Source: an uncultured Blastocatellia bacterium
GTDB taxonomy: Bacteria; Acidobacteriota; Blastocatellia; Chloracidobacteriales; Chloracidobacteriaceae
Assembly (NCBI GenBank): GCA_937934745.1
Contig: CALGZC010000045.1
Location: 1-38,724, forward strand
Reading direction: 5' to 3'
Length of the DNA: 38,724 nucleotides
Under the pieces are notes generated by a model that did not search any database, was not told where the DNA came from, and was given only the letters and a program-made list of their open reading frames with translations. A program made the translations under genes and the position numbers. Positions 6,289 through 36,263 of this stretch are shown here, in pieces. Numbering within the stretch: the first letter of the stretch is position 1; every line of letters begins with the position of its first letter.

Positions 6289-7496
6289 CCAGCGCAGTTG
6301 CGAACGGCACATCGGTGCTCATCATTGGAAGCGGGATTGCCGGGACAACCTTCGCCCACCACTGTGCGCGCCGAGGGATAGCAGTGACCGTCCTGGAGCA
6401 AGATACCGAAGCCGGCGGCGCACTCCGGTCACACCGCTTTGTCAAAGGCAATGGCTTCTGGGCAGAACTCGGCGCGCACACCTGTTACAACAGTTACGGC
6501 ACGCTGCTTTCCTTGATCGAGGACTGCGGACTGCTCCCTTACCTGCGCCCGCGTGCCAAGGTCGGCTTCAAGTTTCTTGTCAGCAACCAGATTAAATCCA
6601 TTTCGTCGCAACTCCACTTCCTAGAGGCCGCTTGGCATCTCCCGTTCGGGCTGCGGACGAAGAAAGCCGGTCGTAGCGTTGCGGATTACTACACCCGTCT
6701 GCTTGGGGCGAACAACTACCGCGATGTGCTGTCACCGGCGTTCAATGCCGTGATGTGTCAGGCAGCAGGGGATTTGCCGGCCGAGATGCTCTTCAAGAAA
6801 CGTCCCCGCCGCACCGATGTCCAACGCACCTATACCCTCCCACAGGGTCTCCAGGGGATCATCACCGCGGCCCTGACGCAACCGGGTGTGCGTTTGGTGA
6901 CGGGCTGTGAGGTCGTTGGCGTGGAACGCGCCGAAGCGGGCTTTGAAGTCTCAACGGCCGGGGGTGACACCTACCAAGCGCGACTGCTAGTTGTTGCGAC
7001 ACCGGCCAACGTCGCTGCCCGGCTCCTGCGGTACGCCTTTCCGTCAGTATCCGAGAAACTGTCCCGCATCCGCGTCGAGACCATTGAAACAGTCGGCATC
7101 CTCGTTCCAAAGGCAGCCCTTCGCGTGCCGCCTGTTGCCGGCTTGATTGCCCGCGATGACTTGTTCTATTCAGCCGTATCACGCGATGTCGTGCCGGATC
7201 AGACCTGGCGGAGTTTTGTGTTCCATTTCAAGCCGGGCAAACTTGACGCGGAAGGCAAGGTACGACGCATTGCCGAGGTCCTCGGCATTGCGCCGGTGGG
7301 CATTGTTGAAACCGTGTTTCGCACCAACATCTTGCCCTCGCCACGGGTCGGCCACGCAGCACTTGTGGAAAGTCTCGACGCTACCCTGGCCGGCATACCG
7401 CTCTTTCTGGTTGGGAACTATTTTGAAGGCGTCTCGATTGAAGACTGCGCGGTGCGTGCCGTGAAAGAGTTCCACCGATTGATCTCGCTCACATGA
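6285..7496 (+). CDS. FAD-dependent amine oxidase/protoporphyrinogen oxidase-like flavoprotein
   Basis: A 403-residue flavoprotein. The N-terminal Rossmann motif VLIIGSGIAGTTFAHHCARR with the following LEQDTEAGGALRS is the dinucleotide-binding signature of the flavin amine oxidase superfamily that includes HemY/CgoX porphyrinogen oxidases, phytoene desaturases and monoamine oxidases. The C-terminal GNYFEGVSIEDCAVRA resembles the FAD-closing segment of porphyrinogen oxidases, whose end typically reads GNxxxGVGixDCI. A protoporphyrinogen or coproporphyrinogen oxidase role is therefore plausible but not proven; at about 400 residues it is shorter than typical HemY (about 450-470). GTG 6285 overlaps the clpA stop by four bases. 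No heme genes adjoin it. Confidence 0.75.
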
Positions 7497-7530
7497 GTTC
7501 TCACGCACCTGAGCGCCGGCACAGGATGGA

Positions 7531-8079
7531 ATGTTTTGGAAACCGTTGCTTCAAGCACTTACCTTCGGTCTCGGTGGGACGGCCCTGGGTGCCACCGTAG
7601 CGTTCATTGCCGGTTATGTGTTTCGAAGCTCCTTTGGCGAGGACAATGTCCCCCTGTTGTGGGTCGTGGGTGGCATCGCCGGTCTTGTCCTAGGCCTGTC
7701 CCAAGTATCCTGGAAGAAGAAACGGCGGCGGCGGCGTCACCGCCCGCAAGTCGTCCTACCGCCAATGCAGCCACCGGGCAAGCACAGTAGCCAGGAAAAG
7801 GACACGGCGGACCACACCCTGACTGTGCAGGGCGACAGCGCGGACAGCAGTTTGTTCTGCCAAGCGACAAATGCCACACTTGAGGAGCTGCGGAACGTGC
7901 GCGTTTGTGACATCCGCCTGGATAGTGACGGGAGACCGCTCAGCATTCGCCTGCGGCAAGGTCAGGAAGAACGGGAAGTATTTCTTGTGCATGACCACCA
8001 CTGCGAGATTGTCGCGAGAGTACTGGCCGAAGCCCTCCGCCGCGAGCCGGGCAACCTGCGGGCCAAACTCTTTGTCTGA
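7531..8079 (+). CDS. Unknown membrane-anchored protein
   Basis: A 182-residue protein of no family I recognise. Two N-terminal hydrophobic helices (LQALTFGLGGTALGATVAFI near residues 8-28 and LLWVVGGIAGLVLGL near 43-57) are followed by a very basic run KKKRRRRRHR, a proline/serine-rich linker and a soluble domain of about 85 residues ending in LFV. The basic run after the second helix predicts that the C-terminal domain is cytoplasmic. ATG 7531 begins 34 bases after the flavoprotein gene, consistent with cotranscription. Confidence 0.7.
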   Translation: MFWKPLLQALTFGLGGTALGATVAFIAGYVFRSSFGEDNVPLLWVVGGIAGLVLGLSQVSWKKKRRRRRHRPQVVLPPMQPPGKHSSQEKDTADHTLTVQGDSADSSLFCQATNATLEELRNVRVCDIRLDSDGRPLSIRLRQGQEEREVFLVHDHHCEIVARVLAEALRREPGNLRAKLFV

Positions 8080-8151
8080 GGCGGCTTTTCCATCCCGATT
8101 TGTGATAGCTTCCGTGGCTGTACGTCTCACTCCTGTTTGAACCAACCGGGT

Positions 8152-10818
8152 ATGCCGACGACCGAAGAGTTACGGCTGGCAGAGTCAGCCGCACGCACGA
8201 AACACTGGAAGCGGTGGGGTCCCTACGTGAGCGAGCGGGCCTGGGGGACGGTACGCGAGGATTACAGTCCGCAGGGTGATGCCTGGAACTATTTTCCCTA
8301 TGAACACAGTCGCTCGAAAGCCTACCGCTGGGGCGAAGACGGTCTGGCCGGGATTTGCGACCGGCGGCAAATTCTCTGCTTCGCACTGGCGCTGTGGAAT
8401 GCACGCGATCCGCACCTGAAGGAACGCCTGTTCGGTCTGACCGGCCCACAGGGCAACCACGGCGAGGATGTCAAAGAGTATTACTTTTACCTCGACTCGA
8501 CGCCGACCCACAGCTACATGAAGTGGCTGTACAAATACCCGCAGGCACGGTTTCCCTACGAAACACTGGTGCACTTTGGACAGGTCCGCTCCCGGCGTGA
8601 ACCCGAATACGAACTGCTCGACACCGGGGTCTTTGATGGTGACCGCTACTTTGATGTGTTTGTCGAGTACGCCAAGGCCGATGTGGACGACATTGTGATC
8701 CGCATCACGGTCGTCAACCGTGGCCCTGACCGCGCCCCGCTCCACGTGCTGCCGACCCTCTGGTTTCGCAACACGTGGTCCTGGTCACCGACAACGGCGG
8801 CTAAGCCGTACATTCAGCAGATTGAAGACCTGGGCCGCACGCGTGTCATGGCCTGTGATCATCCGACGCTGGGGAATCGCTGGCTCTACTGTGCTGACAG
8901 GCCCGACCTGCTCTTCACAGAGAACGAAACCAACCTCGAGCGACTCTATGGTGTGCCGAACCGCACGCCCTACGTCAAAGACGGGGTCAACGACTACCTT
9001 GTCAACGGCCGGACGGAGGCTGTCAATCCGGCGCACACCGGGACAAAAGCGGCTGCCCACTACCGGCTTGAACTTGAAGGCGGCGCTACGGCAACACTCT
9101 GGCTGCGGCTGTGTAACTTCGACCCGGAGACATTGCGCGGCGAGCCATTCGGGCCGGCCGTGCGCATCATGGCAGCGCGGCAGGCGGAAGCCGATGAGTT
9201 CTATGCGACGCGGATTCCCGAAACGCTTTCCAAGGATGCAAAAAACGTGATGCGGCAGGCGTTTGCCGGCTTGCTCTGGACGAAGCAGTTTTATGCCTAT
9301 GAGGTTGATGCCTGGCTGGATGGCGATCCACTCCAACCGCCCCCGCCGGCGGAGCGCCGCCGGGGGCGCAACCACAACTGGCGCCACCTCCACTGTGAGG
9401 ATGTCATCTCCATGCCGGACAAATGGGAATACCCCTGGTTTGCAGCGTGGGACTTGGCTTTTCACTGTGTGCCGCTCGCGCTTGTGGATAGCAATTTTGC
9501 CAAGCAGCAGCTCATCCTTATGTTGCGCGAGTGGTACATGCATCCCAACGGGCAGCTTCCGGCCTACGAGTGGTCGTTTGACGACGTCAATCCTCCGGTG
9601 CATGCCTGGGCCGCCTGGCGCGTTTACAAGATCGAGAAAAAGCGCACCGGCACAGGAGATACGGCGTTTCTAGAACGCATCTTCCACAAGCTGCTCCTGA
9701 ACTTCACCTGGTGGATCAACCGCAAGGACGCCGACGGCAGCAACATCTTTGAGGGAGGTTTCCTTGGGTTGGACAATATCGGCGTCTTCGACCGGAGCGC
9801 CACACTGCCGACCGGCGGCACGCTTCAGCAGTCCGACGCCACAAGCTGGATGGGCATGTACTGCCTCAACATGCTGGCCATTGCGCTGGAACTCGCGCGC
9901 CAGGACATTGTGTATGAGGACGTGGCAAGCAAGTTCTACGAGCATTTCCTCTACATAGCCAATGCGCTGAGCCACCGGGAAGACACGGCCGGTGGCTCGC
10001 TGTGGGACGAACAAGATGGTTTTTACTATGACGCCGTGGCATTTCCGAACGGGCAGCGGCTGCAACTGCGCGTCCGTTCGATGGTGGGGCTAATTCCACT
10101 CTTCGCCGTGCAGATGATGGAGAGTTGGTGGCTGGAGCAGTTGCCCGGTTTCCGGCGGCGCATGGACTGGTTTGTGCGCAACCGCCCTGAACTCGTCAAC
10201 GGCATTGTCTCGGTGGATGCCCAGGGCAATGTTGTCCAGCAGTTGTTGTCGCTGCCGAATACGGCCCAACTGCGGCGCCTCCTGCGTGTCATGCTGGATG
10301 AGAACGAGTTTCTTTCGCCGTACGGCATCCGGTCGGTGTCACGTTACCATCTGGCCAATCCTTATGTCTTGCGCGTGGGCGGGCAGGAATACCGCGTGGA
10401 CTACGACCCGGCGGAGTCTTCGATCCCCATGTTCGGCGGCAACTCGAACTGGCGCGGGCCGATTTGGTTTCCGGTGAATTTTCTCATCATCGAGTCGCTC
10501 CAGAAGTTTCATCACTTCTACGGGGACAGCTTCAAGGTGGAGTGCCCGACCGGTTCGGGCGTCCTCATGACGTTGTGGGAGGTCGCGGCGGAGTTGTCAC
10601 GGCGGTTGTCACGGATTTTTCTCCGTGACCGCGCAGGCAACCGTCCGGTGTATCGCCATCCGGGGATGGAGCGCTTCAACACCGATCCGCACTGGCGCGA
10701 TCTGGTGTTGTTTTATGAATACTTCCACGGCGATACTGGCGCTGGCCTGGGCGCAAGCCACCAGACCGGCTGGACGGGGTTAGTGGCGAAACTCCTCGCC
10801 CAGAGCGGTGAAGGATAG
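8152..10818 (+). CDS. GH63-type glucosidase (mannosyl-oligosaccharide glucosidase-like)
   Basis: About 888 residues from ATG 8152 (TTG 8137 would add five). The sequence resembles the large bacterial glucosidases of glycoside hydrolase clan G (GH63 and MGH1-like). An N-terminal beta-rich part ([20 protein letters not shown]) is followed by a C-terminal (alpha/alpha)6 barrel with the conserved segments [47 protein letters not shown] and [12 protein letters not shown], which carry the acidic residues expected of the active site. No signal peptide is visible, so it probably acts in the cytoplasm, for example on trehalose-like, glucosylglycerate-like or storage oligosaccharides. The natural substrate is not shown. 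It ends three bases before aspS. Confidence 0.85.
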
Positions 10819-27384: not shown

Positions 27385-28077
27385 TCAACAAGTTGTGACC
27401 CAACAGGTGGGAATCGTTCGGGCTTCAGATCCGAACAACCAGTGCGGCTGCAACGGATACACCCTGACGGGACGCTGTGCAGCGCGAAAGTAACCGACAA
27501 CCGGTTCAAGCAAATGGTCACCGTGCACTTCGACAACCCACTGCGTCGGTTCCGGCAACAACTGCCGCGCCCCGTCCAAGACATCCACTTCGGCGCCCTC
27601 AACATCCACCTTGACCAACGCGGGACGCCCGGCCAGCGCCGGACGCGCGGCCAGCGCAGTATCCAGTGTGACCGTCATCCCGTCGTCCTTGGCGCCAACA
27701 TACGCCGCAACAAACTCAAACGTTGCACCGTCATAGGCGCGAGGCCAGGTGCGCGCCGGTTGGGTCAACTGCTCGCCCAGGCCCGGATCGGTCTTCAGTC
27801 CCGGCTCAAATGCCACAATGTGTGGCCGGCGCCCCTGCCGGAGGATGGCCGTCGCACAACCATACGTAAAGTAACCGTCGTTAGCGCCGACATCCCAGAT
27901 CACGTCCACCCGCTTGAGCGCCGTCACTAACCACGGGTTGAGCACATGCTCATATGCGCCGAGTATTTTCCGCTTAGAATGTGCCGGATTCAGAATCAGC
28001 CGCGCGCCACGAAACGGCCCGGCCAGGATTCGCACCGGAGATGGGGTCCGCCGCATCAGCAACGCCGCCCAGCTCAT
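27385..28077 (-). CDS. FkbM-type SAM-dependent methyltransferase
   Basis: From ATG 28077 this is 230 residues. FkbM-family enzymes O-methylate sugars or other hydroxyls with SAM and are frequent in polysaccharide clusters. Motif I is IWDVGANDGYFTYG, followed by acidic FEPG. The family's second signature appears as ALVKVDVEGAEVDVLDGA near residue 150. The start overlaps the argB stop in an ATGA arrangement, so translation is coupled to arginine biosynthesis genes. A longer frame reaching 28212 lies inside argB and its extra residues look antisense-like, so I reject it. Confidence 0.83.
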   Translation of the reverse strand: MSWAALLMRRTPSPVRILAGPFRGARLILNPAHSKRKILGAYEHVLNPWLVTALKRVDVIWDVGANDGYFTYGCATAILRQGRRPHIVAFEPGLKTDPGLGEQLTQPARTWPRAYDGATFEFVAAYVGAKDDGMTVTLDTALAARPALAGRPALVKVDVEGAEVDVLDGARQLLPEPTQWVVEVHGDHLLEPVVGYFRAAQRPVRVYPLQPHWLFGSEARTIPTCWVTTC

Positions 28078-28994
28078 GCCCGGCCTCGGACCCGAGGCTT
28101 CACCGAACTGCCGTAGCCGTTGAGAGTGATCATCGTACCGTCTCCTTCTTCGGTGAAAATCTCCCGCAGCAACGCCCCGGACTTCATGCCGTTGATGATG
28201 TGAACTGAGCAAACACCTGCCTGCAGTGCGCGGGCGGCTGCCTCTAGCTTCGGCAGCATGCCACCCCCTACCTGTCCTCCCGTCATCAGCGCGGCCATCT
28301 GGTGCATGGTCATCCGGCTGATGCGTTTCCCGTGCTCATTGAGTACACCGTCCACATTTGTTGCCAAGACCAACTTCTCTGCCCGCATTTCGGCAGCAAT
28401 CGCGGCCGCGACGGTATCGGCATTCACATTGTAAATGTCACCGTCTTCGTCTGCCGCCAATGACGCCATCACCGGCACAAAATCCTTTTCGATCAGGGTA
28501 TCCAACAAGCGCGTATCTACATCGAGGATTTCACCCACGTAGCCGTAGTCCACCGTCTGGGGCTTGCCGGTCTCTAAATTGACGATGACCTGTGGCGGAC
28601 GCTTGCGCGCGGTTAGAATGTTGCCATCCACGCCGCTCAGCCCGACCGCCGGCACGCCGGCCTGCCGCAGGGCACCTAGAATTTCAACGTTAACCTTGCC
28701 GCCAAACACCATCTTGACCACGTCCAGTGTTCGCTCGTCGGTCACACGCCGGCCGTTGATGGTCTTCGGCTTGATGCCCAGTTGTTGGCTGAGTTCGTTG
28801 GCCTGTAGTCCCCCGCCGTGAACTGCCACGACGCGAATACCGATTTGCGCACACAGGGCCAACTCTTCGCAAAATGAATCCAAGGTTGCTTCGTCGGCGG
28901 CCACCTTGCCACCGAATTTCACGACAAAGGTTTTCCCTTTGAAACGGTTGATGTATGGGAGCGCCTCCCGTAGCACATTTGCATCAAACCCCAT
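28074..28994 (-). CDS. argB: Acetylglutamate kinase
   Basis: A 306-residue amino acid kinase that phosphorylates N-acetyl-L-glutamate with ATP, the second step of arginine synthesis. The ATP site is FVVKFGGKVA with the Lys, the substrate loop VVAVHGGGLQANELSQQLG, followed by GRRVTDERTLDVVKMVFGG and the ATP-pocket block YNVNADTVAAAIAAEM. The Gly-rich turn GGQVGGGMLPKLEAAARA is typical for ArgB. Length and motifs are normal. ATG 28994 is six bases after the acylornithine carbamoyltransferase stop; the argB stop overlaps the FkbM gene. Confidence 0.95.
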   Translation of the reverse strand: MGFDANVLREALPYINRFKGKTFVVKFGGKVAADEATLDSFCEELALCAQIGIRVVAVHGGGLQANELSQQLGIKPKTINGRRVTDERTLDVVKMVFGGKVNVEILGALRQAGVPAVGLSGVDGNILTARKRPPQVIVNLETGKPQTVDYGYVGEILDVDTRLLDTLIEKDFVPVMASLAADEDGDIYNVNADTVAAAIAAEMRAEKLVLATNVDGVLNEHGKRISRMTMHQMAALMTGGQVGGGMLPKLEAAARALQAGVCSVHIINGMKSGALLREIFTEEGDGTMITLNGYGSSVKPRVRGRA

Positions 28995-29000
28995 AGCGTT

Positions 29001-29948
29001 TCAGATCACGTGCAGGCAGTGCAACAGAATTGACTTTTGAACGTGCAGCCGGTTCTCAGCCTCGTCGTAACAATCGTTGTGGGCCGATTCAAGCACGGCA
29101 TCTGTGACTTCAACATTGCGGCGTAACGGCATACAGTGCAGAAACCGCGCCCGGCCGAGTTTTTCCGGCGTCACGATCCAACTCCGGTAGTGCGCCGGGG
29201 GCGGTGCGCCGTAGTTTTCAAGTGAAGTCCACGACTTGGCGTACACTACGTCTTGGTCGGCCAGTGCAGCTTGGTCAGCAATCACCTCAACGCCCGGCAA
29301 CCGCGCCATCACCACGTCAGGGAGGCGGAATTCTGGCGGCGCAATAATCGTCAGCCGACAGCCAAACTGTACCGCAGCCAGGGCAAACGAGTTCGGGACG
29401 GCGGTTGGAAGCGCCTTGACGTGCGGCGTCCACGCCAGCGCCACGCGCAGGCCATCGGTTCGACCAAAACGCTCCCGAATGGTCATTATGTCGGCCATAG
29501 CCTGACACGGGTGATAGAGTGCCGATTCCAGGTTGATAACGGGAACGGTCGCGTGCCGGCGAAAAGCCTCAATCACCGGGTCGGCCGCGTCTTCCGTAGC
29601 TTGCTTCAGGGCCGGAAAACACCGCACTGCCAAGACATCAAAATACCGCGAGAGCACACGCACCGCATCGGCAATATGTTCCGGCTTGTCGCCGTCCATG
29701 ACCGCGCCGTCGAGATATTCCAGGTTCCACACACCACGCCCAACGTCGAGCGTCACCGATGTACCGCCGAGTTGGGCAATCCCGACGGCGAAGCTTGTCC
29801 GCGTACGGAGTGAGCTGTCGAAAAAAATCAGAGCCACGGTGCGCCCGGCGAGCGCAGTGCAGCGTTCTCCACGGTGCGTTATAGCATGCGTCAAAATGGC
29901 TTCGAGGGTTGAGCGGTCGTATTCACTCGTGTCAATGAAGTGTCTCAT
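29001..29948 (-). CDS. argF': N-acylornithine carbamoyltransferase (acetyl- or succinyl-ornithine)
   Basis: A 315-residue transcarbamylase. The carbamoyl-phosphate loop is FFDSSLRTRTSF, with HPCQAMADI and HCMPLRRNVEVTD completing the active site. The sequence is closer to the N-acetylornithine/N-succinylornithine transcarbamylases of Xanthomonas and Bacteroides than to ordinary ornithine carbamoyltransferase, as seen in VWNLEYLDGAVMDGDKPEHI and in the C-terminal ENRLHVQKSILL. It would convert acylornithine to acylcitrulline, so a deacylase must act later. Whether the acyl group is acetyl or succinyl cannot be decided here, but the argC and argB neighbours fit acetyl. It overlaps argC by four bases. 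Confidence 0.85.
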   Translation of the reverse strand: MRHFIDTSEYDRSTLEAILTHAITHRGERCTALAGRTVALIFFDSSLRTRTSFAVGIAQLGGTSVTLDVGRGVWNLEYLDGAVMDGDKPEHIADAVRVLSRYFDVLAVRCFPALKQATEDAADPVIEAFRRHATVPVINLESALYHPCQAMADIMTIRERFGRTDGLRVALAWTPHVKALPTAVPNSFALAAVQFGCRLTIIAPPEFRLPDVVMARLPGVEVIADQAALADQDVVYAKSWTSLENYGAPPPAHYRSWIVTPEKLGRARFLHCMPLRRNVEVTDAVLESAHNDCYDEAENRLHVQKSILLHCLHVI

Positions 29949-30982
29949 GGATTCATGGCGAGCTGCGTCAGGCCGGTTGTTTCAGGCAAACCTTGCATGA
30001 GGTTGAAGCACTGGACGGCCTGTCCGGCTCCGCCCTTCACAACATTGTCCAACGCTGCCCAAACGACTGCCTTGCGATCTTGTGCAGACAGCCCAAGGTC
30101 ACAGTAGTTGGTTCCGGCAACCCACTTGATGTTGGGTGGCTCATCCCGCAGCCGAATAAACGGCGCAGTGGCGTAATGTGCGGCGTACACGTCCCGCAGG
30201 GTTGCCGTCTCTGTCGCTCGGCGGAGGCGAACATAGGCCGTTACGAGGATGCCCCGGACAAAAGGCCCTGAGTGCGGCTGAAAGACAAAGGTCACGTCGC
30301 GTCCCGTTGCCAGGCGGAGCGCCTGGGCAATTTCCGGGACGTGCCGGTGGGTAAACGGTTCATAGGCGAAAAAGGCGTCGGCCCGAAAAGGATGGTGGGT
30401 TGTCGCGCGTGGCGCGACCCCGGCTCCGGAAGAGCCGGTGATGCCATTGACAAAGGCTTCTTCGAGGAGATCGGCGGCGACGAGCGGGTATAGCGCCAGC
30501 GTCACTGCGGTTGCAAAACAACCCGGTGCAGCGACATAGCGCGCCCGACGCAGGCTATCTCCGAACAGCTCCGGCAACCCATAGACGAAACGGCCGAGCC
30601 AGGTCGGCGCTTGGTGGGGGCGACCATATGTGGCGGCATACACGGCTGGATCGCAGAGCCTGAAATCGGCCGAAGCATCAATAATGCAGCGCCCGGTCGC
30701 AAGCGCGTCAATGTGCGTCATGGCAACCTGGTTGGGCAATGCCAGAAAGACAACCTCCGCCGCACCGACTTCGGTCAGCGGCGTGATGGTCAGCTTGCAC
30801 CCGGCTAGGTTCGGATGCACATCCGCCAGCGCCTTGCCGGCGGTCTCTCCCCCGGTGACAGCGACAATCGTAACCTTGGGGTGGGCAAGCAAGAGGCGGA
30901 CAATTTCGCCGCCGATGTAACCCGACGCGCCGACCACCGCAACGCGCAGCGGTGCAGCCGGCAGCGCTGACACTGCTGTCAT
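29945..30982 (-). CDS. argC: N-acetyl-gamma-glutamyl-phosphate reductase
   Basis: A 345-residue NADPH-dependent reductase that makes N-acetylglutamate semialdehyde, the third step of arginine synthesis. The nucleotide-binding turn is VVGASGYIGGEIVRLL near residue 16. The catalytic Cys155 sits in VAAPGCFATAVTLAL. Further family segments are GSSGAGVAPRATTHHPFRAD and HRHVPEIAQAL, with the active-site His. NIKWVAGTNYCDLG precedes the C-terminus. Spacing to the upstream P-loop gene is ten bases and the downstream overlap four. Confidence 0.95.
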   Translation of the reverse strand: MTAVSALPAAPLRVAVVGASGYIGGEIVRLLLAHPKVTIVAVTGGETAGKALADVHPNLAGCKLTITPLTEVGAAEVVFLALPNQVAMTHIDALATGRCIIDASADFRLCDPAVYAATYGRPHQAPTWLGRFVYGLPELFGDSLRRARYVAAPGCFATAVTLALYPLVAADLLEEAFVNGITGSSGAGVAPRATTHHPFRADAFFAYEPFTHRHVPEIAQALRLATGRDVTFVFQPHSGPFVRGILVTAYVRLRRATETATLRDVYAAHYATAPFIRLRDEPPNIKWVAGTNYCDLGLSAQDRKAVVWAALDNVVKGGAGQAVQCFNLMQGLPETTGLTQLAMNP

Positions 30983-30992
30983 AGGTCTTTAC

Positions 30993-32039
30993 TCAGGCCA
31001 CGGCCGCATCCGGCGCGTAGCAAATGGTCGGTTGCGCCAGATGCAGGATGTTGCCGACCAAGTTCAGGGTCGTAAAGAGTCTCTCTGGGTACTTCAGGGC
31101 ATTGACGGCCGGAATTCCCAGATGGGTTTCAAGGTAGTCCGAACCGGAGATGTTTTCCGTCGCCAGCCCGCTGAAAGCGGCGATGCGCACGCCGAGCCGG
31201 TCGAGATAAACGCGCGCGCCATACGCCCCCATGAGATCACCTGCGCACACAACCAAGGCGGCAACAGATGCCATAATGTCAGGGTCTGCAATGACTGAAT
31301 CCACTCGGTAGTGGCCGAAAATGCCGTCCCCTAACTCGAAGATCAGCAGATCACCGTCCAGCGCATTGGCAATCGTTTTGACAATTGGCGCCAGATCGTG
31401 CGCATCCACCGTCGAGGGCAAACCGCAATCCAGGAAACTTTTGACATCCACCGCTCCGGCCGCCTCAAACTTCTTGAGGTCGCGGACGGCGCCGACGCCG
31501 GAGAGTTTCGCCGCGCCAACACGAAACCCGTGCGCTGTTGCAACACGGATGAGTTCTGATGCCGTGACGGTTTTGCCGACGTTCATGCACGTTCCGACCA
31601 CCAACACAATTGGACGCTGCCGCAGCAGGTGAGTCGCGGTCGGAAGCGCATCACGCTGAAGATTGACGACGCCGCGTTCATCATGCAACGTGCCGAGGTA
31701 GCGAACCTGGGTTGCCTCCCCGAGGGCCGTCGTCGCGTCGAGAAACTTTCCGATGACACCACCAACGTTGAGGATCGACAGCAGGTCGTTTTCCGCCAGT
31801 GTGCGGGGGACACACCCGACAAACCCGCGCAGCGCCTGGCGTGAGCCGAGAACCCCAATGATGTGCTCGCCGGCGACTAACCGCGTCGTCACCCCATTCA
31901 TCAGCTCGAGATACGGGTAGTGTTCATTGACGCGCAGCACTTCGACGGCCACCACGTCGCCAAGCTGGGCAACCGGACGCGGCTGGATGGCAATCTGTTC
32001 GCCAATGATGACTCGGAGCGTTGAAGAACCTCGTTTCAT
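30993..32039 (-). CDS. Unknown P-loop protein embedded in the arginine operon
   Basis: A 348-residue protein. Residues 1-140 form an unassigned beta-rich domain with the pattern GEHIIGVLGSRQALRGFVG. A P-loop domain follows: Walker A GTCMNVGKT at residues 149-157, a switch-like KLSGVGAVRDLKKFEAAGA, an acidic Walker B-like strand DLLIFELGDGIFG near 230-242, and a strand VAALVVCAGDLMGAYGARV. The architecture recalls the dethiobiotin synthetase/CobQ-like (SIMIBI) NTPases and, loosely, DUF1611/DgcN-type proteins. I cannot name the family. ATG 32039 overlaps the argH stop by four bases and argC follows after ten bases, so it is cotranslated with arginine enzymes and likely functions with them or regulates them. 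Confidence 0.8.
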   Translation of the reverse strand: MKRGSSTLRVIIGEQIAIQPRPVAQLGDVVAVEVLRVNEHYPYLELMNGVTTRLVAGEHIIGVLGSRQALRGFVGCVPRTLAENDLLSILNVGGVIGKFLDATTALGEATQVRYLGTLHDERGVVNLQRDALPTATHLLRQRPIVLVVGTCMNVGKTVTASELIRVATAHGFRVGAAKLSGVGAVRDLKKFEAAGAVDVKSFLDCGLPSTVDAHDLAPIVKTIANALDGDLLIFELGDGIFGHYRVDSVIADPDIMASVAALVVCAGDLMGAYGARVYLDRLGVRIAAFSGLATENISGSDYLETHLGIPAVNALKYPERLFTTLNLVGNILHLAQPTICYAPDAAVA

Positions 32040-33418
32040 GACACGTCCTCCCGGTGTACTGCGCGCGCAATCGTGAGCTGTTCGGCGACTCGCGCCGGGG
32101 CCGTTCCGCCGTGCGAGACGCGACTGGCAATGGATTGTTCTGGGGTGAAGGTTTCAGGCGTCACACGCAAACCGAGCGCCGCCCACTCGTTTGTCGGTAC
32201 TTGAGAAAAAGGTACGCCGTGACGCACCAAATTGCCAATGATTGCGTAAGCCGTGCGGAACGGGACACCCTGGGCCACAAGTTTTTCAACCAAGTCTGTG
32301 GCGTACAGCCGCTCATCTGCCGCGGCCTGACGCAGGACTTCACGCTGTACCGTCATCCGCTGCACGGCCAGCGTACAAACGTTGATTGAAGCCAGCGTCG
32401 TGTCCGCAACGCGCACCACCGGCGGTTTCGTTTCTTGCAGGTCGCGATTGTAGCCGACCGGCAAACCCTTGAGCGTCGTGAGCAAGTTGACCAGTTCACC
32501 GATACACTGCCCCGCCCGCCCTCGAACCAGCTCCAGACAATCCGGGTTTTTCTTCTGCGGCATGACACTGGAGCCGGTTGTCAGCTCGTCGGGTAGGCGA
32601 ATGAAGTTGAACTCCTGCGAACACCAAAGAATGAGCGTCTCGGCCAACTGTGACAAGTGAACGGCAAGCAGGGCACAGGCAAAGACAAACGCTGCGGCAA
32701 AATCGCGGTCCGTTACCGCGTCGAGTGCATTCGTGAAAACGCCATCGGCGCCGAGCAACTGCGCTGTCAGTTGGGGGTTAATCGGGACCGCCGTTCCGGC
32801 CAGCGCACACGCCCCCAACGGTGAAATCAACGGCTGACGCAGTCGTTCCGCATCGCGGGTCAGGGCAGCGTGATAGGCGAGCAACACATGCGCAAATGAC
32901 ACCGGCTGCGCCCGCTGAAGGTGGGTGTAACCGGGCATGACCACATCGGCGCAGGCTTCCGCCTGCGTTGCCAGAGCCGTCGTCAGTTCGGCCAGGGCGA
33001 CACGCAGCTTGGTTTCGCAGTCGCGCACATAAAGCCGCAAATCAAGCGCCACTTGGTCATTCCGGCTGCGCGCCGTGTGCAACAAGTGCGCCTCCGGGCC
33101 GATCAGCTCTTCTAACCGCCGCTCAACATTCATGTGAACGTCTTCATACGCCGGATCGAGCGTTAGTCCCTCGGCGCGAATCTGTTCCAGTCCCGCCAGC
33201 AAGCGTGCCGCCTGTTCCGCAGACAACACACCGCAGGCCTCAAGCATGGCGACATGCGCCGCCGAACCCCGTAGATCGGCTTCAAGCAAATGGCGGTCGG
33301 TCTCCACAGAAGCCACAAAGTGAGCGATGAAAGCCTCCGGCGGGCCGCTAAAGGCAGCCCGTAGGGTCTGCGTTGCGGTGGCCGGCGGAGGCCCGGAACA
33401 AGTGGATTTGCGCGTCAT
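32036..33418 (-). CDS. argH: Argininosuccinate lyase
   Basis: A 460-residue fumarase/aspartase superfamily enzyme that splits argininosuccinate into arginine and fumarate, the last step of the pathway. The signature loop is TGSSVMPQKKNPD near residue 283. The substrate block HTARSRNDQVALDLRLYVRD and MPGYTHLQRAQPVSFAHVLL with the catalytic His are intact. Length is standard (about 460). The start at 33418 overlaps the preceding small membrane protein gene by four bases, and the stop overlaps the P-loop gene. Confidence 0.96.
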   Translation of the reverse strand: MTRKSTCSGPPPATATQTLRAAFSGPPEAFIAHFVASVETDRHLLEADLRGSAAHVAMLEACGVLSAEQAARLLAGLEQIRAEGLTLDPAYEDVHMNVERRLEELIGPEAHLLHTARSRNDQVALDLRLYVRDCETKLRVALAELTTALATQAEACADVVMPGYTHLQRAQPVSFAHVLLAYHAALTRDAERLRQPLISPLGACALAGTAVPINPQLTAQLLGADGVFTNALDAVTDRDFAAAFVFACALLAVHLSQLAETLILWCSQEFNFIRLPDELTTGSSVMPQKKNPDCLELVRGRAGQCIGELVNLLTTLKGLPVGYNRDLQETKPPVVRVADTTLASINVCTLAVQRMTVQREVLRQAAADERLYATDLVEKLVAQGVPFRTAYAIIGNLVRHGVPFSQVPTNEWAALGLRVTPETFTPEQSIASRVSHGGTAPARVAEQLTIARAVHREDVS

Positions 33419-33681
33419 TTGTAATCCTCTGGAGGCTCAGAATGCCAATGCCGGTAAAACGTCACCTCAAAGCCGAAGAGCGCTACGGTCAACAGGGCAA
33501 ACGAGACGTGGGTCAACAGATTGATGCGCTCCGACTCGATAGTTCCGAACACCACAATGAGCGCCGTCATCAACGCGGCCGTAAAGCCTACGGTCGCCAG
33601 CACCTCTTCCCAGAACAAGCGCCGGTGACGGGCAGCGCCAATGACAGCACGCGCAGAAACATCAAAGGGGAACATTGGCAT
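33415..33681 (-). CDS. Small two-helix membrane protein in the arginine operon
   Basis: An 88-residue protein with two hydrophobic helices (VLATVGFTAALMTALIVVFG and LLTHVSFALLTVALFGFEVT) and a polar C-terminal tail. I do not recognise a family. I choose ATG 33681 because GGAGG lies eight bases upstream; a GTG at 33696 would lie on top of that ribosome site. It overlaps argH by four bases and follows argG after 129 bases, the only sizeable gap in the arg genes. A transport or membrane-recruitment role in arginine metabolism would be speculation. Confidence 0.7.
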   Translation of the reverse strand: MPMFPFDVSARAVIGAARHRRLFWEEVLATVGFTAALMTALIVVFGTIESERINLLTHVSFALLTVALFGFEVTFYRHWHSEPPEDYK

Positions 33682-33745
33682 GATGAAAACCTCCACAGGC
33701 AGTGTTGTCGGCCGCGTGCATCAAAGCGTGCGCGATACGATGGGG

Positions 33746-33810: not shown

Positions 33811-35001
<1,191 letters not shown>

Positions 35002-35007
35002 CACCCG

Positions 35008-35538
35008 TCACTTCCCTTTCTTACCGGCCTTAGCGCCGGCCTTCGCACGTGGTTCGTTCTGAACGTTCGACCCGGCCAGGCGCTCAAGCTGCTCGACCAC
35101 TTGCCGCGCCTTAGACTTGGTCTTGGCAACGACCAACACCGTGTTGTCGCCGGCCACAGTCCCGATCACTTCAGGAAATGCCAATCGGTCAATGGCTTCG
35201 GCGACCGGGTGCGCATTGGCAGCGTCGGTATGCACAACAACCAGGTTTTCTGCTGCCTGCACACGGCGCACCAGACGCGACAGCACAAACGCTTCATCAG
35301 AGGCGGGCAACACGGCCGGCGTCCGACCGTAGTAAAGCCCATCGGCGTCGGAAAGCCTGACCAGCCCTAGCTCCTTGATGTCGCGTGAGATCGTCCCCTG
35401 ATCGCAGGTGATGCCGTAGTGTCCGGCCAGAGCAGCACAGAGTTCCTCCTGGGTACGCAACCGCTTGGTGTCCACAAGCTCCAGCAGCGCACGGTGGCGT
35501 TCAGCCTTACCCTTCCCCTCGACAAAGCTCTTTCCCAC
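35008..35538 (-). CDS. argR: Arginine repressor ArgR
   Basis: A 176-residue transcription regulator that senses arginine as a hexamer and binds ARG boxes. The winged-helix N-terminus has TQEELCAALAGHYGITCDQG and TISRDIKELGLVRL, the recognition part. The C-terminal oligomerisation/arginine domain contains VVHTDAANAHPVAEAIDRL and VIGTVAGDNTVLVV with the Gly-Asp-Asn that contact arginine. After the usual end near 150 there is a basic tail (RAKAGAKAGKKGK). GTG 35538 is the start because AAGGAGG lies just upstream; the frame continues to 35673 but that part covers the operator region and is not ArgR-like. It heads the long minus-strand gene train. Confidence 0.93.
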   Translation of the reverse strand: MGKSFVEGKGKAERHRALLELVDTKRLRTQEELCAALAGHYGITCDQGTISRDIKELGLVRLSDADGLYYGRTPAVLPASDEAFVLSRLVRRVQAAENLVVVHTDAANAHPVAEAIDRLAFPEVIGTVAGDNTVLVVAKTKSKARQVVEQLERLAGSNVQNEPRAKAGAKAGKKGK

Positions 35539-35572
35539 CGTTTCCCTCCTTGTCAAGCAGCGCAAGCAGCGG

Positions 35573-35600
35573 ATACTACGCATAACTATGTATCTGTCAA
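35573..35600 (-). promoter_or_regulatory. Predicted argR operon promoter
   Basis: On the minus strand TTGACA (35600-35595) is a perfect -35 box, followed after 16 bases by TAGTAT (35578-35573). It lies 35-60 bases upstream of the argR GTG. The two ARG-box-like palindromes flank and overlap the -35, so bound ArgR would block polymerase. Confidence 0.6.
35579..35592. promoter_or_regulatory. ARG-box-like operator, proximal
   Basis: CGCATAACTATGTA matches the symmetrical pattern TGCATAAYTATGCA in 12 of 14 positions. It lies between the -35 and -10 of the predicted argR promoter. Confidence 0.6.
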
Positions 35601-35613
35601 GCATAATTATGCA
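35600..35613. promoter_or_regulatory. ARG-box-like operator, distal
   Basis: AGCATAATTATGCA contains the perfect 12-bp palindrome GCATAATTATGC (35601-35612). Its centre is 21 bp from the centre of the proximal box, two helical turns, the same spacing as tandem ARG boxes in enteric bacteria. It abuts the -35 element. Confidence 0.65.
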
Positions 35614-36263
35614 CCGGTTTTCGGTCAGGTCCGACGCGCAAAGCATGGAGCTTAGTGCCTGAAAGCGTGGCACCTGGACGGTGATGCTTCCCGGCCTGGG
35701 CGGCGCGGCTGTGGATGCTGTAACCCACCTTCAGGTCAACAACTGAGTTCGTCGCGCCTAGACGCTTGATTGTTGGCGTTTTGACTTGATCCTTTGCGTT
35801 TGAATCGGCTGCGGCTTGAATGAAGAGGCCGGTTGCGCTCAAGCGCGGCGCTTTCCGGCCCGTGCAGAACAGGACTCGGCTGCCTCGTGGTCAGTTGTCC
35901 CGCCACGCCTGACGCAAGGTTGAACGTGAGATTGTCCGCCGGCGCAACAATTGCCGGCAGCAACAGCCCGTCAGAGATGTCAACACCCGTCAGGGACATC
36001 AACTGTGATCGCCGGCTTGTGTCAAGGGCCGAGGTCTTCGCTGCCGTCAGATGCGAAGCGGCCGGGACACAGCTAGCACGTCGCACCGCAGAAACGGCGC
36101 TCAGGGTAAAGAATGAGCAAAAGGCGACTTACCAAACCACGAATTCTGAGCCGACAGCCGAGATGGCGCAGGGCAAGATGCCGCGCGACTCGGCCAATGC
36201 AGCGCGCCGTCGCGGTTGTCGCCCTTACATCGTTTAAATGGCTGAGCGTAACGTTGATCAACG
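35614..36263. other. Stretch without a confident gene, possible decayed remnant
   Basis: About 650 bases upstream of argR. On the minus strand, one frame (about 36086-35850) reads like protein (SLTGVDISDGLLLPAIVAPA), and another frame overlapping its end (35842-35597) also looks protein-like (GLFIQAAADSNAKDQVKTPT, LGATNSVVDLKVGYSIHSRA). This could be one frameshifted secreted-protein remnant, but no start codon with a ribosome site is visible and the case is weak. Nothing else stands out. Confidence 0.3.

Follow-up and report, generated by a model that had tools for sequence, protein, structure and literature searches.

The first step of arginine biosynthesis is a known gap in genome annotation; Holophagaceae, for instance, have been reported to lack an N-acetylglutamate synthase (PMC11561045), and automated pathway tools flag first-step gaps of this kind as possible missing capabilities (PMC7311316). 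Enzymes known for this step include ArgJ (PF01960), the NAT domain fused to ArgB in NAGS/K proteins (PF04768), and the GNAT-type ArgA proteins of about 200 to 250 aa; GNAT proteins of the BT3761 type from Bacteroidetes and Cabys_1732 from Caldithrix have been described as N-acylglutamate synthases (PMC7311316, PMC5317091). Acylation of D-glutamate is assigned to DgcN, a P-loop protein of the DUF1611 group reported as a D-glutamate N-acetyltransferase (EC 2.3.1.312, PMC11747546; PDB entry 7xrj).

We propose that a 348-aa P-loop protein encoded in the arginine operon of a photosynthetic, Chloracidobacterium-like acidobacterium is a nonorthologous N-acyl-L-glutamate synthase, i.e., a first arginine enzyme unrelated to the known ones, and we place the probability of this reading, based on gene order and genome comparisons, at about 0.74. 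It draws directly on the position of the gene in the operon, its co-occurrence with genes of the early arginine steps, its alternation with first-step enzymes, the absence of these enzymes from the genome, and the predicted fold of the protein, from which we infer that the P-loop protein itself is the catalyst.

The window, i.e., the whole 38,724-nucleotide stretch of DNA that was analyzed, belongs to a Chloracidobacterium-like genome of 3.29 Mb that is 99.9% complete. Its arginine genes all lie on the minus strand and are transcribed in the order argR, argG, a gene for a 93-aa hydrophobic protein, argH, the P-loop gene, argC, a carbamoyltransferase gene, and argB. They encode an ArgR-type arginine repressor (positions 35008 to 35673; Pfam Arg_repressor and Arg_repressor_C), argininosuccinate synthase (33811 to 35004; NF001770, 572 bits), the 93-aa protein, probably a membrane protein (33415 to 33696; sequence, Pfam search, and genus comparison), argininosuccinate lyase (32036 to 33418; TIGR00838, 481 bits), the putative N-acyl-L-glutamate synthase (30993 to 32039; sequence, Pfam, predicted structure, and gene context), N-acyl-gamma-glutamyl-phosphate reductase (29945 to 30982; TIGR01850, 361.9 bits), an N-acyl-ornithine carbamoyltransferase of the AOTC/SOTC family that is predicted to be of the succinyl type (29001 to 29948; NF003384, 352.8 bits, and residue comparison), and N-acylglutamate kinase devoid of an acetyltransferase domain (28074 to 28994; TIGR00761, 233.8 bits, and Pfam). 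The gene for the 93-aa protein shares 4 bp with argH. Within the genus, its conservation is 62 to 64%, and as far as seen it is confined there; no copy was seen in the arginine operon of L103, a genome from the same family.

The P-loop gene runs from an ATG at positions 32039 to 32037 to a stop codon whose last base is 30993, and it shares the 4 bp ATGA with argH, the TGA stop codon of which occupies 32038 to 32036. Ten base pairs separate it from the start of argC at 30982. The Walker A motif, GTCMNVGKT (residues 149 to 157; 31569 to 31595), was found in the sequence and is conserved in the family alignment. The first-pass annotation had already described the 348-aa open reading frame (ORF), its Walker A motif, the 4-base overlap with argH, and the 10-base gap to argC, all of which we confirmed, on the minus strand. 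The protein is intact in all other Chloracidobacterium genomes seen, a comparison that took in two assemblies of two contigs each, with 82 to 85% identity and each time between argH and argC. Its homologues span several phyla and share about 60 invariant alignment columns. Since it is intact, kept at one place across the genus, and has homologues in several phyla, the ORF is not a chance ORF.

The observation that the window contains neither argA nor argJ, and no argD or deacylase gene, was also correct for the window. Over the whole genome, ArgJ was again not found, but argD is present outside the window (G000:C42; TIGR00707, 437.5 bits versus a cutoff of 410). A GNAT ArgA of the N-acetylglutamate synthase type was not found in the genome either; its only GNAT stretches are three in number, two of them RimI-like and one ElaA-like, an assignment that we take from PRK10314. 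We therefore rejected the idea of a first enzyme hidden among the GNAT proteins of this genome. In pure culture, Chloracidobacterium thermophilum is reported to need no amino acids other than Ile, Leu, Val, and Lys and to make all the rest (PMC4376005). With a genus member self-sufficient for arginine and no recognized first enzyme, the P-loop protein is the natural candidate.

We then looked into the homologues and their gene contexts. Relatives occur widely in Acidobacteriota, in Balneolales and related Bacteroidota (Balneolota/Rhodothermota-like), and in Peregrinibacteria/Peribacteria of the CPR, and their genes almost always adjoin argC. In the first Acidobacteriota loci fetched, the P-loop gene adjoins argC in 20 of 20 cases, with argG, argH, or argR nearly always ahead of it. 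Two loci (L004 and L015) have the order argG-[P-loop]-argC-argD-AOTC-argB-deacylase-argH, which covers every arginine step but the first, and three others (L005, L008, and L020) hold a similar near-complete set; the deacylases of such loci are of the M20 type or, in CPR, AstE/AspA-like. Five Acidobacteriota genomes have a P-loop-argC-argD-argB arrangement and no AOTC, so that the P-loop gene goes with the early steps rather than with the special carbamoyltransferase. In a tree, the arginine-linked sequences all fall on one side of a branch and the distant sequences without arginine neighbors fall on the other. One Acidobacteriota operon (L071) carries a gene for a PLP enzyme of the Cys/Met metabolism type (7051 to 8385) between argD and the carbamoyltransferase gene.

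The first-pass annotation had tied its proposal to homologues neighboring arginine genes, and in our first scan this held for 18 of 21 loci; the 3 without arginine genes beside the P-loop gene (L007, L013, and L016) are all from CPR genomes (G005, G009, and G011) that contain no argC. These three copies are of the arginine type and fall inside the arginine-linked CPR clade of the tree, so that the rest of the pathway may have been lost or the assemblies may be incomplete. The genes around the copies at L007 and L013 resemble each other.

Where the P-loop gene is missing from otherwise similar operons, a known first-step enzyme often stands in the arginine locus. Three Bacteroidota loci (L084 to L086) have the same layout without the P-loop gene and with a GNAT gene immediately before argG, which fits the BT3761/Cabys_1732 type as described; other Bacteroidota operons without it contain argC-argJ. 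An AOTC operon of an acidobacterium (G079) without the P-loop gene has an argB fused to a NAT domain (PF04768; E value, 1e-37). The GNAT-type ArgA thus occupies a similar place, for the same inferred step, in an otherwise matching operon, but its gene precedes argG whereas the P-loop gene lies between argG and argC, and the P-loop protein gives no GNAT signal. Likewise, ArgJ and the NAT-fused ArgB, to which the same step is ascribed, are found in arginine loci without the P-loop gene and belong to families unrelated to the P-loop protein.

Counts over genomes agree with this alternation. Among 149 Acidobacteriota genomes, 35 have the P-loop protein (counted above 280 bits), 34 have AOTC (over its cutoff), and 30 have both. 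ArgJ was never found in the same genome as the P-loop protein (0/35 versus 47/114 of the genomes without it; Fisher's exact P of 2e-7, which ignores kinship and is descriptive only), and the GNAT ArgA profile gave one weak fragment and nothing else in the 149 genomes. In the Bacteroidota sample, of 198 genomes, the P-loop protein occurs in 16, GNAT ArgA in 82, and ArgJ in 83; GNAT ArgA and ArgJ never occur together, and the P-loop protein overlaps once with each of them. Neither ArgJ nor GNAT ArgA is present in 14 of the 16 genomes with the P-loop protein, versus 19 of the 182 without it (Fisher's exact P of 8e-11 for the P-loop protein against ArgJ or GNAT ArgA, again descriptive only, as kinship is ignored). 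The expectation that genomes with a homologue would lack argA and argJ was thus borne out nearly always, the exceptions being the ArgJ of Balneolales and one genome (G193) with the P-loop protein and a GNAT ArgA elsewhere. In Balneolales (L022 to L025), ArgJ lies beside a second argC, apart from the P-loop operon, which suggests two parallel routes. In two AOTC operons (G156 and G146), argR directly precedes argC, and neither the P-loop gene nor another first-step enzyme was found. A search for remnants of the P-loop gene in the four genomes that have AOTC but not this gene found none; one of them (G097) is noninformative, as its contig starts inside argC.

The CPR copies in genomes without argC, the two AOTC operons without a substitute, the ArgJ of Balneolales, and the GNAT ArgA of G193 count against a synthase role. 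Some of these cases bear on another reading, in which the protein would have a different enzymatic role near the pathway, e.g., acyl transfer to ornithine or acyl recycling, with the first step performed by an unrecognized enzyme elsewhere. The orphan CPR copies, the joint presence of ArgJ and the P-loop gene in Balneolales, and the existence of relatives outside arginine operons, one of them in a cluster of the phosphonate type that also holds genes for an M20 peptidase and an ornithine carbamoyltransferase, are in its favor. We nevertheless consider it unlikely, as the co-occurrence with argC, argD, and argB and the exclusion of ArgJ, GNAT ArgA, and NAT-fused argB are most readily explained by replacement of the first-step enzyme.

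We then analyzed the sequence of the P-loop protein, which no curated family of Pfam or NCBIfam claims. The Pfam profile of DUF1611 (PF07755) matched only residues 142 to 176, around the Walker A motif, with 19.8 bits versus a gathering cutoff of 25, and we did not accept membership on a score under the cutoff; a search with the profile of the DUF1611 N-terminal domain (PF17396) gave zero matches at E values up to 1. NCBIfam yielded only weak BioD and MobB matches, and identity with dethiobiotin synthetase was rejected at 14.6 bits versus a cutoff of 83.3 (TIGR00347). In a profile search of solved structures, dethiobiotin synthetases were the closest matches, with an E value of about 0.006, and DgcN (7xrj) was absent from the matches at E values up to 10. 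Neither Pfam nor NCBIfam detected a GNAT, ArgJ, or NAT domain, and a PHROGs search, for a phage family, was without match. The family signature comprises YxxxE, LGxRxALxGxxGxxP, LNxGGxxG, the Walker A motif GxxMxxGKT, and ExGDGxxGxY. The Walker A lysine and threonine are intact across the family alignment; the cysteine of the loop was rejected as an acyl carrier, being replaced by Ala or Ser in Rhodothermia-like homologues.

The predicted structure (pLDDT, 88; pTM, 0.87) consists of an all-beta N-terminal domain (residues 1 to 136) and a P-loop domain (residues 140 to 333). The P-loop domain matches the DUF1611 proteins 2g0t (Z score, 16.2) and 2obn (16.1), DgcN (15.1; rmsd, 3.1 over 177 residues, with 19% identity), and dethiobiotin synthetases (BioD; about 16). 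In this model, DgcN fits no better than BioD, CTP synthase, or SRP GTPases do, and the fold is therefore no guide to the reaction. Residues 1 to 120 are modeled nearly entirely as strand and loop, and a fold search of the N-terminal domain against the PDB gave nothing with an E value under 0.001 (best Z score, 3.3). The N-terminal domain of DUF1611 proteins is Rossmann-like. The distant likeness to DUF1611/DgcN named in the first-pass annotation is seen in the C-terminal fold, whereas the Pfam score stays below the DUF1611 cutoff. DgcN also resembles the proposed enzyme in that its name denotes glutamate N-acetylation, but it acts on D-glutamate in degradation and not, as proposed here, on L-glutamate in biosynthesis, and the N-terminal domain of the window protein is predicted to be all-beta. 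With BioD, the protein shares the fold of the P-loop domain and a Walker A motif in the style of GTxxxVGKT, but it has no biotin genes nearby and carries an additional N-terminal domain.

These likenesses leave two candidate acyl donors. As a variant of the synthase reading that differs in the donor alone, N-acylglutamate could be formed with ATP by activation of a free acid or a carbamate-like adduct, in the manner of dethiobiotin synthetase. The closest sequence matches among solved structures, the fold score of about 16 to BioD, and the Walker A lysine and threonine kept family-wide would suit such a reaction; DgcN, however, the relative with a P-loop for which glutamate acylation has been reported, is filed as an N-acetyltransferase, and we regard the ATP-dependent variant as improbable. 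By analogy with DgcN, acyl-CoA is the more likely donor.

Still less probable is the regulatory alternative of the first-pass annotation, in which the protein would be a regulator or assembly factor, an NTP-binding switch sensing arginine, ATP, or an intermediate and controlling argC, argB, or the carbamoyltransferase: its P-loop belongs to the BioD/SRP/HypB class, some members of which are maturation factors or switches, and its gene is tightly packed between argH and argC, but alternation with catalytic first-step enzymes is unexpected for a regulator, the gene accompanies argC-argD-argB even where AOTC, the special carbamoyltransferase, is absent, and the first step would be left without an enzyme in an arginine-making genus.

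As an N-acyl-L-glutamate synthase, the P-loop protein would acylate the amino group of L-glutamate with acyl-CoA as the donor. The products of argB, argC, and argD would take the resulting N-acyl-glutamate to N-acyl-ornithine, the carbamoyltransferase would convert the latter into N-acyl-citrulline, a deacylase would free citrulline, and the argG and argH products would convert citrulline to arginine. The protein would thus carry out a known step in a new way.

The carbamoyltransferase may tell which acyl group is used. At the position of Glu92 in Xanthomonas AOTC (Glu in 3kzc), the window enzyme (29001 to 29948) has a Pro and so lacks the Glu of the acetyl type; the PDB variants 3l04, 3l05, and 3l02 have Pro, Ser, and Ala there. 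Ser, Pro, Ala, or Val at this position has been reported to favor the succinyl substrate (PMC7311316), and from its Pro the window enzyme would be a succinyl-specific SOTC. The carbamoyltransferases of operons with the P-loop gene have Pro, Ala, Ser, Thr, or Gln and never Glu, and that of the operon with the NAT fusion has Glu; as the published rule does not include Thr and Gln, the succinyl type in P-loop operons is a prediction. On account of the Pro found where the acetyl-specific enzyme has Glu92, the acyl group in the lineage of the window may be succinyl, which we rank somewhat above acetyl. The speculation in the first-pass annotation of a nonorthologous role in acetylation therefore carries over as glutamate N-acylation, which the adjacency to argC and the missing first-step enzymes support, but with an acyl group that is perhaps succinyl. 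More tentatively, and with the odds leaning slightly against it, the new family, defined by an all-beta N-terminal domain and a BioD/DUF1611-like P-loop domain, could be an N-succinyl-L-glutamate synthase at the head of a succinylated arginine pathway in Acidobacteriota, in Rhodothermota/Balneolota-like lineages, and in some CPR.

In the open-access literature, we found no paper assigning this P-loop family to arginine synthesis. If the synthase assignment is true, the family would close the first-step gap for every genome with a member and correct false predictions of auxotrophy, and it would add a further unrelated solution to one reaction. The recruitment of the P-loop fold, known mainly from NTPases, to glutamate acylation would then not be limited to DgcN, and a succinyl group would extend succinylated arginine pathways outside Bacteroidetes.

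Several further relatives lie outside arginine operons. A plasmid of Priestia megaterium (NZ_CP085446.1, 88630 to 89691; 5905 to 6966 of locus L122) encodes a relative with 33% identity to the type found in P-loop-argC-argD-argB arrangements. Also in its cluster are genes for a PEP mutase, an M20 peptidase, an ornithine carbamoyltransferase, a pair of LAL-type ATP-grasp ligases, and two subunits of a TPP enzyme. The set resembles a pathway for a phosphonate peptide, in which an acyl group may be protective or the ornithine carbamoyltransferase may be a resistant copy. Two distant relatives away from arginine genes (L067 and L101) lie beside an M20 peptidase, with a flavin-reductase-like protein also present at L101, and another (L099) lies beside Asparaginase_2. 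On three Rhodobacterales plasmids (L121, L123, and L124), distant relatives are part of a small unit with an ABC transporter, which on the two Paracoccus plasmids among them also includes an alpha/beta hydrolase.
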